This document shows, one piece after another, positions 3,977 through 59,837 of a stretch of 64,000 bases of DNA. A model generated the notes under the pieces. It had not been told where the DNA came from, did not search any database, and was given only the letters and a program-made list of their open reading frames with translations. Source of the DNA: an uncultured Candidatus Puniceispirillum sp. (GTDB lineage: Bacteria; Pseudomonadota; Alphaproteobacteria; Puniceispirillales; Puniceispirillaceae); contig CAJJBY010000006.1 of the NCBI GenBank assembly GCA_905182545.1, positions 62,001 through 126,000 of the forward strand, given 5' to 3'. Made by a program: the position numbers and the translations under genes. Positions within the stretch are counted from its first letter, which is position 1. Every line of letters begins with the position of its first letter.

Positions 3977-6600
3977 ATGCTAAAACGTCGCGAGGACTAT
4001 ACGCCGCCCGCTTTTCTGGTAACGGCAGTCGATCTGAATATCGACATTCATGATCTTGGCAGCATTGTCACAACCAAATTGGCCGTCACGCCGAACCCTG
4101 CGGCTGGCGGGGCGGCGATGTTGCATCTGGATGGGCGCGGGCTTGAGCTTCAATCAATTTCGGTTGATGGCAAGCCCTTGGCCGATACTGACTATAGCCA
4201 TGATGAATCTGGATTGCAGATTACCGGCCTGACTGGCGCTTGTGTTGTTGAAACAATCGCCAAATGCCACCCTGAAACCAATACCGCCCTAGAAGGGCTG
4301 TATCTATCGGGTGGCATGTATTGCACGCAATGCGAGCCTGAAGGATTTCGCCGGATCGGGTTTTATCCTGATCGCCCTGATGTGATGAGCATTTTCACCG
4401 TTCGGTTAGAAGCCGCGCGTGCCTATCCGCAATTGCTGTCGAATGGAAATCTGATCGAGACGGGCCATTGCGGCACTGACCGGCATTTTGCCATCTGGCA
4501 TGACCCGCATCCAAAACCAAGCTATCTATTCGCGGCGGTCGTTGGTGATCTTGATTGCGCTGTTGATCGCTTTCAAACCATGTCCGGGCGCAAGGTTGAT
4601 CTTCATATCTATGTTGAAAAGGGCAATCTTGACTTGACCCATCATGCGATGGATTCGCTGAAACGGTCGATGCGCTGGGACGAAGAGGTTTATGGCCTTG
4701 AATATGACCTTGATCTGTTCCAGATCGTTGCGGTTAGCCATTTCAATATGGGCGCGATGGAAAATAAAGGCCTAAATATTTTCAACAGCAAATTTGTGCT
4801 GGCCGATACCGCAAAACCGCAACCGACACTGACCTACACCGTGTCGAGTCGATTATTGCCCATGAATATTTCCATAATTGGACCGGCAATCGTGTGACCT
4901 GCCGTGACTGGTTTCAATTAACCCTTAAAAGAGGGGCTGACGGTTTTTCGCGATCAGTGTTTTTCGGCAGATATGCATGATGCTGGCCTGCAACGCGCCG
5001 ATGATGTGTCGATGCTTCGCGCCGCACAATTTCCCGAAGACCGCAGCCCAACAGCGCACCCGATCCGGCCTGAAAGCTATCGTGAGATCAATAATTTTTA
5101 CACGGCGACGGTGTATGAAAAAGGCGCTGAGGTCATTCGCATGCTTGCCGGCTATCTTGGCAAGGATGGGTTTCGGCGCGGCGCAGATCTTTATTTTGAA
5201 CGCCATGATGGGGCGGCGGTAACTTGTGATGATTTTGTGGCGGCACTTGCCGATGCGAATGATGTGGATCTGTCAGATTTGCTGGCTGGTATTCGCAGGC
5301 CGGAACGCCTGAATTGACCGCCAGCCGCGTGATGACTGATGATGATCAGGCTTTTGCCATCGAATTTACCCAGAATATTCCTGAAACCATGGCAAAAACA
5401 CCTCGATTGCCGCTGCCGATACCGGTTCGCCTTGGGCTTGTTGGCGATGATGGGGCGATTGTGCCATTCCGGCTGTCTGCCGATGCGCCCTATCTTGATG
5501 AACAGGTCATTCTGGTCACTGGCAAAACGCATCTTCAACCAATTTTCCCCGCATCATCTGGAAAAATCGTGCCAAGTTTGCTTCGCAATTTTTCGGCGCC
5601 AGTTATTTTGAAAGATGATTTGTCGTCATCTGAACGGCTGCATTTAATGGCGCATGATGCCGATATGTTTAACCGCTGGGATGCGGCGCAAACGTTTCTT
5701 GCCGATCAAATTCTAGCAATTGCACATGATCCAAAATATGGCGTTGATGAAACGGCAGTTGCGGCACTTGCCAAGGCCTATGCCAACAGTCTCGCTGATC
5801 CAGATTTACTGGATATGTTCAAATCGGGTCTTTTGACGCTTCCCGCGATTTCGGTTCTGGAAAGCCGTATGACGCCAGCCGATCCAGTGGCGCTGTTTCA
5901 TGCGCGACGGGCGGTTGAGGCGGCTCTTGGGCGGATGCTGGCACCGCAAATCAAATCTGCGCTGACCGATGAAAATACGGTCATCATGGCCAAAACAGAT
6001 GGTGGGCGTGCCTTGTTAAACCGGCTGTTGGGCTTGGCCATTGCTGCCGGTGATAATGACGCCATTGAATGCGCTGCAAAACAGGTTCATGACCAGAATA
6101 TGACCCTGTCACAAGGCGCATTAATGGCCTTGAACCATTGTGATCATCCGGCGCGTGCCATTGCTTTGCAGGTGTTTCATGATCGTTGGCAGGACAGCCC
6201 GCTTGTCATGGAAAAATGGTTCATGATGGAATCGATGTCGCTTGTCTCTGCCACGGTTGCGCGGCTTGGTGAATTAATGGCGCATCCGGCATTTGATGCG
6301 AACAATCCAAATAAATTACGGTCGGTTCTTGGTGCCTTTATGACTGGCAATCCGGTGCATTTCTATGCTGATGATGGATCAGGATTTGATTTTATCGGTG
6401 ATTGCCTGATTGATATTGATGCGCGTAACCCGCAATTGGCGGCAAGGATGGCGTTGCCTTTGACCCGTATGGCGCAATATGCCCCCGAACGGCGTGCCAA
6501 AATGGGCGCGGTTTTGCAAAAGATACAAAAACAGGCGCAATCAAACGATCTTCGTGAGGTCATTGATAAGGCGCTGGCAGATAGCCCGTCACCCGCGTAA
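3977..6600 (+). CDS. pepN: Aminopeptidase N (M1 family), three apparent frameshifts
   Basis: [25 protein letters not shown], then [23 protein letters not shown] in another frame, then [18 protein letters not shown] and [16 protein letters not shown], joined across ORFs 3920-4897, 4973-5317 and 5314-6600. Confidence 0.93.
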
Positions 6601-57428: not shown

Positions 57429-57493
57429 ACCTTATCATTTTTGCTGAAAAGCCGATTGCCTAGACATCTTGGCGCGGCTATAATAATATCTGC

Positions 57494-57570
57494 CGGAGCG
57501 TAGCGCAGCCTGGTAGCGCACTATACTGGGGGTGTAGGGGTCGTGGGTTCGAATCCCGCCGCTCCGACCA
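57494..57570 (+). tRNA. tRNA-Pro (GGG)
   Basis: CGGAGCG...CGCTCCGACCA acceptor, anticodon loop CTGGGGG, GGTTCGAATCC T-arm. Confidence 0.95.
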
Positions 57571-57718
57571 AAATTAATTAAATTAAGATCAACAGTTTAC
57601 TATCAGACTTCGGCCTTAACTGGCCGGGGGCTTTTTTTGTGTTTGGGGAGTGATTTGGGGAAGATTTTGTTGTAATGTTTGACATTTGGAGTTGTCAAAG
57701 TGGACCTTCAATTACAGA

Positions 57719-58842
57719 TCAATTGACAATCTCTGAGGCAACTCTTGTCAGAACTTCACTACTAAATAAGTTACCTGCTTGATACTTTTCATCGACGGAA
57801 AAAATTGAAATTACGGTGTTTTTCTCAACGCTGAGAACATTGAATAGACCACCGTGACCAGTCATGGTGATTGCGCTCTCACCATCAACATCATAAACCC
57901 AAAATTGAAAACCATATTTTACATTTTCACGAGTTGTGGATACAGAAGTGTTAATTCCTTCTTTAAAAAATTTGCCCATACAACTCTCGGCCCTAACCTC
58001 ATTTATTATAAACTGGCCAAATAAATTCCAGTCGGGAGCTGTCATTACCAATCTGGCTAGAGAAACCGTCCGTCCCTTTTTATCTGCTGCCCAATGTATT
58101 TCTCCATTAGGTCCAAATTGTTTTACGATGTTTTCGTAAAAAATTTGTGCAACTGATTTACCTGTAAGTTCAAAAATGAGCACTGAAAGTGCAAGAAGAG
58201 TCTGCGGCATGATAATTATGCTGTCGCTGCTTGCCGTCTTGTGACCCTTGAAATGGCGTGCAGCCTGCCAAAACATCTGCGCTCCAGCAAATCTCTTCAT
58301 TCCCATAGCCATTTGATTGGCGAGTTTTACGTCTTTTCGGTTTGGCTGGTAACACCACTGTTCATCTGCAAGACATTACGAATTGATATTTTACTGTACG
58401 GCGTGTCTCGTAATCCAATTGCATATAAACCAATCTCATCATCAAGCGATTTAATTGACCCGTCACATACAAGACTGCCAACCGCAGCACCCAGTGCTGT
58501 TTTTGACATAGACATACCGTGTAGAGGCGTTTGAGAAGTGATCTTCTTATTGTCGTCAAACCGTGCATAGACAATTTTGTTATTTTTCCGAACGATTGCG
58601 GCAAGGTTGTATTTATCGTCGAAGAATTTATCGAAATTCTGTTCTTTAATTTGTTTTACTTTACTCGGCAGTTCTTCACCAAAACTCTCGATATTGACCT
58701 CAAATGGGCCTATCGTCCCTGTTTTATGCGCTGTGAAATATGGCTTTATTTGTCGTTTCCACATCCTCTCGGGTCCATGGTCCGCATATGACTCGGTTGA
58801 AATAGAAATTCCTGAGAGGAATAAAGTGGCAGCCACCACCAA
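57719..58842 (-). CDS. Exported serine hydrolase (beta-lactamase/class C-like fold), frameshift near 58345
   Basis: HGMSMSKTALGAAVGSLVCDG (SxxK), YSKISIRNVLQMNSGV; second half in another frame with TMTGHGGLFNV. Confidence 0.8.
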
Positions 58843-58999
58843 TAAGTATTATTTGTAAAAATTTCATTTTTAGAGTTTTCCTTTGAAAAGCAGGTGGCAG
58901 TTTAACTACTACTCGATAGGGTCTTAGAGCAACTAGATGTTACATAAGAAAAGGACCGCGCAAACGTGGTCCGAGTTTTGGGCAGAAATGTTAAACAGG

Positions 59000-59197
59000 C
59001 TATTTGTCCGAACTCCGGCATTCTAGGATACGCCTTATACGCCTCAACTCAATAGAGTGTGTGTCTAAACCAAGATTGCGCCTGATGAAGCCCACTAGCC
59101 AAACAACGCAAATGCCCATTACCAAATAAACAGTAACTCTGAGCCAGAAGATTATCTGGTCTATTTGAGCAACGATGTCATTAATGATTTCAGTCAT
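59000..59197 (-). CDS. Small single-TM hypothetical protein (micro-ORF 3)
   Basis: MTEIINDIVAQIDQIIFWLRVTVYLVMGICVVWLVGFIRR...; start overlaps the stop of the upstream small ORF. Confidence 0.45.
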   Translation of the reverse strand: MTEIINDIVAQIDQIIFWLRVTVYLVMGICVVWLVGFIRRNLGLDTHSIELRRIRRILECRSSDK

Positions 59198-59267
59198 AGT
59201 TTTGAGTCACCCCAAGCTGTCTGCTGGACAGGGTCAGTAATATGGCTGTGAGTAGGGTGCGGGTCAT
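59190..59267 (-). CDS. 25-aa putative peptide (micro-ORF 2), below ORF-track cutoff
   Basis: MTRTLLTAILLTLSSRQLGVTQNYD*; ATG overlaps the TGA of micro-ORF 1. Confidence 0.3.
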   Translation of the reverse strand: MTRTLLTAILLTLSSRQLGVTQNYD

Positions 59268-59428
59268 TTTTCTAGCTCTTTTAGTTCCTGTCTCGCCTGC
59301 CACATCTCCACACAAGGGTCACAACGACCCGTAGCAGGTCGAATTGCCCGATAAGCTGGATGCTTTTTGCAGCCGTCCACCAAAATCTCCATCAACTGTA
59401 GTTGTTTTTTGAGGCTTTCAACGTCCAT
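59264..59428 (-). CDS. 54-aa Cys-containing small protein (micro-ORF 1), below ORF-track cutoff
   Basis: MDVESLKKQLQLMEILVDGCKKHPAYRAIRPATGRCDPCVEMWQARQELKELEK*; GGGAG 9 nt upstream of ATG. Confidence 0.55.
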   Translation of the reverse strand: MDVESLKKQLQLMEILVDGCKKHPAYRAIRPATGRCDPCVEMWQARQELKELEK

Positions 59429-59690
59429 GGATTGATACTCCCCAGAATTGAAGTCAAACGCAAGTTTTCATGATTTGCCCATAAGTTGAATAAGTCTCGC
59501 ACCCCTTCCAAGCGAAAAAGCAACGACCAGAAACCCCATCAATCGATTCAGAAGCCTCCCTGAAGAGCGAATGAGTCGGATTGTTGCTAGCCGTGTGACA
59601 AAGCAGCCTTGCTGAGCAAATTTTGTATCTTGAGAGGAAAGGGGGCTTAACATTGGCTGTGCGGTTAATATTAATACTAATACATTGCTA

Positions 59691-59786
59691 GGTTATGCAG
59701 TGTTATGCATTGCACAATGTTATGTTTATTTTTTACACATTTATCTCTCTACTTACCTTGCTATGCAATGTTACTAAGCAATGCAG
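59691..59786. repeat. AT-rich cluster of short direct/inverted repeats (TTATGCA/TGCATTGCA/CAATGTTA variants)
   Basis: GGTTATGCAGTGTTATGCATTGCACAATGTTATG ... CTATGCAATGTTACTAAGCAATGCAGG. Confidence 0.5.
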
Positions 59787-59837
59787 GGAAGTTAATTTAT
59801 TATTATATATAACGCTGATTTGGAACAGGGGTGAACA

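Follow-up and report, generated by a model that had tools for sequence, protein, structure and literature searches.

The window, by which we mean the whole 64,000-nucleotide stretch that was analysed (G000:C6:62001-126000, from a SAR116-type alphaproteobacterium), carries three minus-strand open reading frames (ORFs) between positions 59000 and 59428, and these lie in an insertion that reaches back to a tRNA-Pro gene. The features of the locus are the following:

57494-57570, plus strand: tRNA-Pro(GGG), an integration site in sister genomes.
57593-59593, no strand: 2.0-kb insertion relative to genome G089, from tRNA-Pro to the region upstream of a divergent 87-aa gene.
57719-58312, minus strand: 3' part of a broken serine hydrolase (PF00144, E=0.038, profile positions 154-308).
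58327-58842, minus strand: 5' part of the same broken hydrolase (Pfam Beta-lactamase family, PF00144, E=7.5e-8).
58946-58972, minus strand: terminator-like hairpin and U-run, 28 nt past the stop codon of the 65-aa ORF.
59000-59197, minus strand: 65-aa single-transmembrane (TM) protein, a conserved SAR116 family.
59190-59267, minus strand: 25-aa ORF, a damaged copy of a repeat that we call SP1, with a 1-nt deletion that shifts the frame of its last third.
59211-59267, minus strand: the SP1 repeat unit proper (58 nt, from ATG to the signal-peptide cleavage site; nhmmer E=1e-15).
59264-59428, minus strand: 54-aa ORF ("Z54"), a CxxH-x12-CxxC small protein, predicted helix-loop-helix, probable zinc knuckle.
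59438-59443, minus strand: RBS-like GGGGAG, 9 nt 5' of the Z54 ATG, read from the sequence.

The three ORFs are joined by start-on-stop overlaps as the first-pass annotation had described, and the ribosome-binding site that it placed ahead of the first one corresponds to the GGGGAG element. Its term "nested" was loose, in that the overlaps are short and join the ORFs into a chain, with none lying inside another. The 25-aa ORF runs from an ATG at 59267-59265, which overlaps the Z54 stop codon as ATGA, to a stop at 59192-59190, which is overlapped in turn by the ATG of the 65-aa ORF as ATGACTGA. This arrangement is more than a chance string of codons, because the two outer ORFs have many homologues and are under purifying selection, and the middle one is a copy of a dispersed repeat. 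As for conservation of the overlaps in relatives, the exact triad of Z54, 25-aa ORF and TM gene was found in this genome only, whereas the overlap joint recurs elsewhere. The hairpin at 58972-58946 is seen in both the minimum-energy and the centroid structures; it was not flagged by a consensus scan, and the whole stretch folds no better than its shuffles. A sub-threshold Rfam match to suhB at 58938-59007 (22.2 bits, with a cut-off of 41) was attributed to the terminator-like hairpin there.

The insertion contains the three ORFs and the broken serine hydrolase, apparently a pseudogene (57719-58842). In G089 the site is nearly empty: the G089 sequence matches window positions 57493-57592 and, after 87 nt, resumes at 59594-59810. 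The tRNA-Pro locus is an integration hotspot. Integrase-like genes, judged from sequence, stand beside tRNA-Pro(GGG) in G083 (intact) and G090 (broken) (L334, 2995-3996, reverse complement; L333, 1989-2882), and in G080 the 3' end of tRNA-Pro is repeated exactly over 50 nt (L336, G080:C12, reverse-complement 2546-2622 and 4384-4433). The repeat bounds an insert of 1.8 kb, and the TM gene lies immediately beyond it. This G080 insert encodes a 478-aa protein with repeated Cys-rich, zinc-ribbon-like segments. A second copy of the tRNA end is absent from the window, and the stretch from tRNA-Pro to the 87-aa gene has no phage genes.

When 136 genomes of the order were searched in six frames, Z54 homologues came up across many genera. 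A genome may have as many as four copies, and stop codons interrupt many of them; all ligands and the conserved Trp are kept in 26 copies, and about 20 are decayed. Homologues of the 54-aa protein had been anticipated, and they are indeed spread over the SAR116 order, with further ones beyond it in G237 and in a contig labelled Rhodobacteraceae (L071). The median dN/dS among intact copies is ~0.10, and Z54 is therefore a real protein. In alignments the invariant residues are G-C-x2-H-P-A-Y-R-A-x-R-x-A, followed by C-x2-C and W-x-A, and an AlphaFold2 model (pLDDT 87) places helices at residues 3-18 and 37-53, flanking the Cys/His loop. The CxxH-CxxC layout suggests that the protein binds zinc. 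Sequence searches of Pfam, NCBIfam and the PDB returned nothing for Z54, and Foldseek gave no match in the PDB and weak matches only among viral structures. Selenocysteine was considered for the copies of G012 and G015 (L030, L034), in which TGA replaces Cys20; a conserved H or W is lost in them as well, so decay rather than recoding accounts for the codon. Several copies (L042, L043, L047, L060, L063) have a terminator-like hairpin (GGCCAGC-loop-GCTGGCC, then T-rich DNA) within ~40 nt before them, which may be a read-through control or the relic of a junction.

The neighbours of Z54 vary from copy to copy, with flavin-reductase-like, RraA-like, alpha/beta hydrolase and GYD genes, identified by family matches, just upstream, and redoxin-like, oxidoreductase, hydrolase and acyl-CoA dehydrogenase-like genes, judged from sequence, downstream. 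Kin of Z54 do occur in viral contigs; the SAR116 copies adjoin unrelated genes outside recognisable prophages.

Two spaced DNA patterns were run against viral contigs: C-x2-HP-x-Y-x-A-x-R-x5-C-x2-C matched 42 contigs and its R-x-P variant 87, while the R-x-P pattern shortened by one base, an off-by-one control, matched 0. Nearly all of the matched contigs encode small proteins with CxxHPxYxxxRxPxxxCxxC(W). The closest case is a 50-aa protein of contig L155, which is 48% identical to Z54 over 42 aa, flanking helices included (BLASTP), shows the same helix-loop-helix layout in the alignment, and is encoded together with a DUF2460 protein and a deoxynucleotide monophosphate kinase, as in a phage. 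An hhalign profile comparison of Z54 with the viral set gave 98.1%, a value inflated because the motif had been used to choose that set. In a fairer test, in which the motif residues were kept and the rest was shuffled, the L155 protein scored 49 bits against Z54, compared with a null of 13 ± 4 (z=8.5), and 87% of 63 viral proteins scored above their own null mean. The resemblance of the Cys/His pattern to small phage proteins, as stated in the first-pass annotation, therefore holds.

Z54 has in common with the small phage C-x2-HP-x-Y-x3-R-x-P-x3-C-x2-C proteins (in PHROGs, e.g. phrog_26717) the motif, its spacing (C-x2-H-P-x-Y and C-x2-C, 12 residues from H to the next C) and flanking residues. 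It has no proline at the RxP position, where SAR116 members read R-[PK]-A-T, and is therefore a homologous branch rather than an RxP-type member. Unlike the phage proteins, Z54 has a conserved W-x-A-R tail and sits as dispersed chromosomal copies outside recognisable prophages. phrog_26717 is matched by 11 of 24 Z54 members, weakly (best E 0.0064), and neither single-sequence nor alignment scans returned a close relative of Z54 from the viral contigs. Z54 is a bacterial branch of a phage-type small-protein family, and it is most likely a small zinc-knuckle protein, of a kind carried by phages, that would bind nucleic acid or a protein partner. The phage-type variant CKKHPRYRAIRKPAVDCxxCWAAYRAR is encoded by alphaproteobacterial chromosomal genes in G160 and G291 (L094, L095).

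The phage type of Z54, the integrase-like genes at tRNA-Pro in G083 and G090, the tRNA-end duplicate in G080 and the absence of the insert from G089 could all be accommodated by a one-prophage remnant, in which the three ORFs and the broken hydrolase arrived together with a phage that used tRNA-Pro. We consider this unlikely, as the insert has no structural or replication phage gene, the window has no tRNA-end duplicate, and neither the TM protein nor SP1 is a phage family in PHROGs. Moreover, the TM gene of G080 is not enclosed by the tRNA-end repeat and may therefore be part of the host locus. What remains of the phage remnant suggested by the first-pass annotation is the position of the cluster in an insertion at a tRNA integrase site, which makes an origin in an integrated element plausible; phage genes and a tRNA-end duplicate are missing from it.

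The TM product is a predicted small membrane protein with homologues in ~30 genomes, at 82-89% identity in the nearest and 30-43% in genus g15, and the family has a dN/dS of ~0.11. In g15 the gene always stands between a TRAP-transporter-like gene and a small ORF, and no Z54 accompanies it. Behind it, G083, G090 and G088 have a bPH_2 gene that the window locus lacks, and the bPH_2 protein is the likely partner of the TM protein, missing here. Z54 and TM genes are direct neighbours in this genome (G000) only, and lie ~1 kb apart in G090.

These distributions bear on the proposal that the outer ORFs form a coherent pair, a cytosolic metal-binding protein with a membrane micro-protein (toxin-antitoxin, holin-like or regulatory) and the 25-aa peptide as linker. 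Tight start-stop coupling, selection on both outer ORFs and the phage kinship of the 54-aa protein speak for such a pair. It is nonetheless improbable, more so than a prophage remnant: many relatives have one of the two genes alone or both at a distance, and the constant g15 place of the TM gene has no adjoining Z54. Z54 and TM are two separate conserved families, each widespread and elsewhere found beside unrelated genes, and the notion of one coupled module is not borne out. Nor did any family match to a toxin, antitoxin or holin emerge, which leaves the toxin/holin-like or regulatory role of the earlier reading without support.

The most unusual part of the finding is the 25-aa ORF, which is a broken SP1 copy that had been overlooked in the earlier reading. 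The DNA just 5' of the TM gene is common to the window, two loci of G083 and one of G090. In G083 and G090 it codes for a 24-aa peptide, MTRTLLTAIFLILFSHTASGESNL or a close variant of it, which ends at the TM start codon; in the window copy one base is missing and the tail is shifted, although this 1-nt deletion could be a sequencing error in a draft genome. Similarity searches with a 60-nt stretch as query, and then with a consensus, revealed a dispersed 58-nt repeat that is a signal-peptide coding sequence, MTRTLLTAIFLTLFSQTAW(A). Its basic start, hydrophobic core and AWA end suggest the layout of a Sec signal peptide. With the consensus as query, 7 genomes of the genus yielded 19 strong copies between them, and G083, a one-contig genome, accounts for 4. 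Most copies are in frame with unrelated, longer cargo that is predicted to be secreted, such as a 175-aa protein with a ricin-type lectin domain, a 223-aa protein with a weak TonB_2 match and an 88-aa coiled-coil-like protein; the remaining cargos have no family match, and the names given to cargos rest on weak or no family matches, with the exception of the lectin.

The limits of the repeat were determined from 118 pairs of SP1 copies in which both the upstream and the downstream DNA are unrelated. The per-position identity is 0.2-0.3 up to -2, rises to ~0.9-1.0 at the ATG, averages 0.6-0.9 up to +57, and is back to background soon after +58. With boundaries this sharp, the repeat hardly extends beyond the stretch that codes for the signal peptide. 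At 14 of 18 sites the SP1 start is no more than 23 nt away from an upstream stop codon, and often overlaps it (ATGA, GTGA, TAATG).

In the sister genomes, upstream genes and cargos can be seen to reassort at the SP1 joint. A DUF1330 upstream arm, 91-96% identical as far as the ATG, is joined to different cargo in G083b, G085c and G088a, and so is a polysaccharide-deacetylase-like arm (95%) in G083c and G090c. Conversely, a 95% identical lectin cargo lies behind different arms in G084 and G090c, as does the 88-aa cargo in G083c, G085d and G090f. The arm and cargo combinations link into a chain, A4-C2-A2-C3-A3.

A query with another leader seen beside SP1 uncovered a second repeat, SP2 (MTRKLTLFLVCAFEIVLILFVAAW...), which occurs ~20 times in the genus, once in G078, and once in this genome outside the window (G000:C6:217368-217431; L321). 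SP2 also sits on stop codons, after Z54 and after a DUF1330 gene in G089, and after bPH_2 in G083, G090 and G088. The order SP1-cargo-SP2 is found at several loci (G085:C61, G090:C8, G084, G088:C17), and in G083 and G090 the cargo between SP1 and SP2 is TM plus bPH_2; for the exchanged unit, a right-hand end could be fixed in some cases only. Z54 is followed by SP1 here, by a decayed SP1 in G093 and by SP2 in G089; thus, one upstream gene carries SP1 in one genome and SP2 in another.

The same observations could be taken to mean that SP1 is not exchanged at all, and that one ancestral secreted gene was duplicated, with divergence of the mature parts and conservation of the signal peptide. Signal peptides are under functional constraint, SP1 has a dN/dS of ~0.39, and selection on the signal peptide could account for part of the similarity among SP copies. 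Against this, the mature parts are unrelated, from 10 to ~200 aa long and with different folds or family matches; the conservation is at the nucleotide level, silent sites included (median dS 0.36); and SP1 also precedes the TM protein, which has no use for a signal peptide. The same arm with different cargo, and the same cargo behind different arms, rule out duplication and divergence unless the assemblies are wrong, and it is in our view the least probable of the alternatives, with very little chance of being correct.

We regard the cluster as probably the mosaic tail of an operon, composed of three independently moving small pieces within the small tRNA-Pro insertion. A mechanism by which such tails are built can be proposed. 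Near-identical SP1 or SP2 copies would provide short stretches of homology for ordinary recombination, within a genome or with incoming DNA, and an exchange at these copies would replace the cargo behind an upstream gene. With its start codon on or near the upstream stop, the captured cargo would inherit both the transcript and the translation of its new neighbour, and would gain the export signal as well. In the window, SP1 most likely joined Z54 to the TM gene, whose product needs no signal peptide, and the SP1 copy then lost one base, so that it is now probably a translational link only. We infer recombination at the SP copies as the cause, and likewise the translational coupling and all functions assigned here. 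The wider form of this proposal, in which signal-peptide sequences are standing recombination joints in this SAR116 genus, cassettes flanked by SP1 at their left end and SP2 at their right are exchanged behind unrelated upstream genes, and operon tails with new exported proteins are built by docking starts on stops, is tentative, and we give it somewhat less than an even chance. The SP1 joints suggest that small-gene cassettes are swapped in SAR116 bacteria.

Families with a constant 5' leader and variable 3' parts are known from Mycoplasma vsp/vsa switching and from the prochlorosins, which involve dedicated inversions or modified peptides at one locus or in one family, whereas SP1 precedes unrelated proteins at scattered loci. 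Integron gene cassettes are alike in that promoterless small genes are captured behind an existing promoter and swapped; here, however, the joint lies inside a coding sequence, and no attC-like site or integron integrase was noticed, short of a systematic attC search. A closer parallel is offered by the SVM proteins of phytoplasmas (PF12113, SVM_signal), which are described, in the part of PMC8026896 that cites Jomantiene et al. 2007, as having a conserved signal peptide before different mature proteins in recurrently rearranged genomes. Compared by description, SP1 resembles SVM in placing one signal-peptide sequence before unrelated mature proteins. It differs in that the bacterium is a free-living marine alphaproteobacterium, with neither transposon nor plant host, that the repeat is bounded by start codon and cleavage site and the units are operon tails on stop codons, and that there are two distinct repeats. 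PF12113 was not among the Pfam matches (E<=0.1) of four SP1-cargo proteins and one SP2 protein, so the system is better described as SVM-like in its working than as a member of that family. A search for natural signal-peptide shuffling returned engineering papers only, which is weak evidence in view of its partial coverage of the literature.

SAR116 is an abundant clade of the surface ocean. If export signals do serve as exchange joints in these bacteria, an incoming reading frame could become a new secreted protein by acquiring a ready signal and its neighbour's transcript, a birth that would need no promoter, transposon or integron. How small genes and start-stop overlaps are born is a long-standing question, to which this would be a simple and testable answer. 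The cluster also illustrates how a row of overlapping micro-ORFs can mimic a functional operon and yet be of recent mosaic origin, and it connects a small protein of phage type with recurrent gain and loss in bacterial chromosomes.
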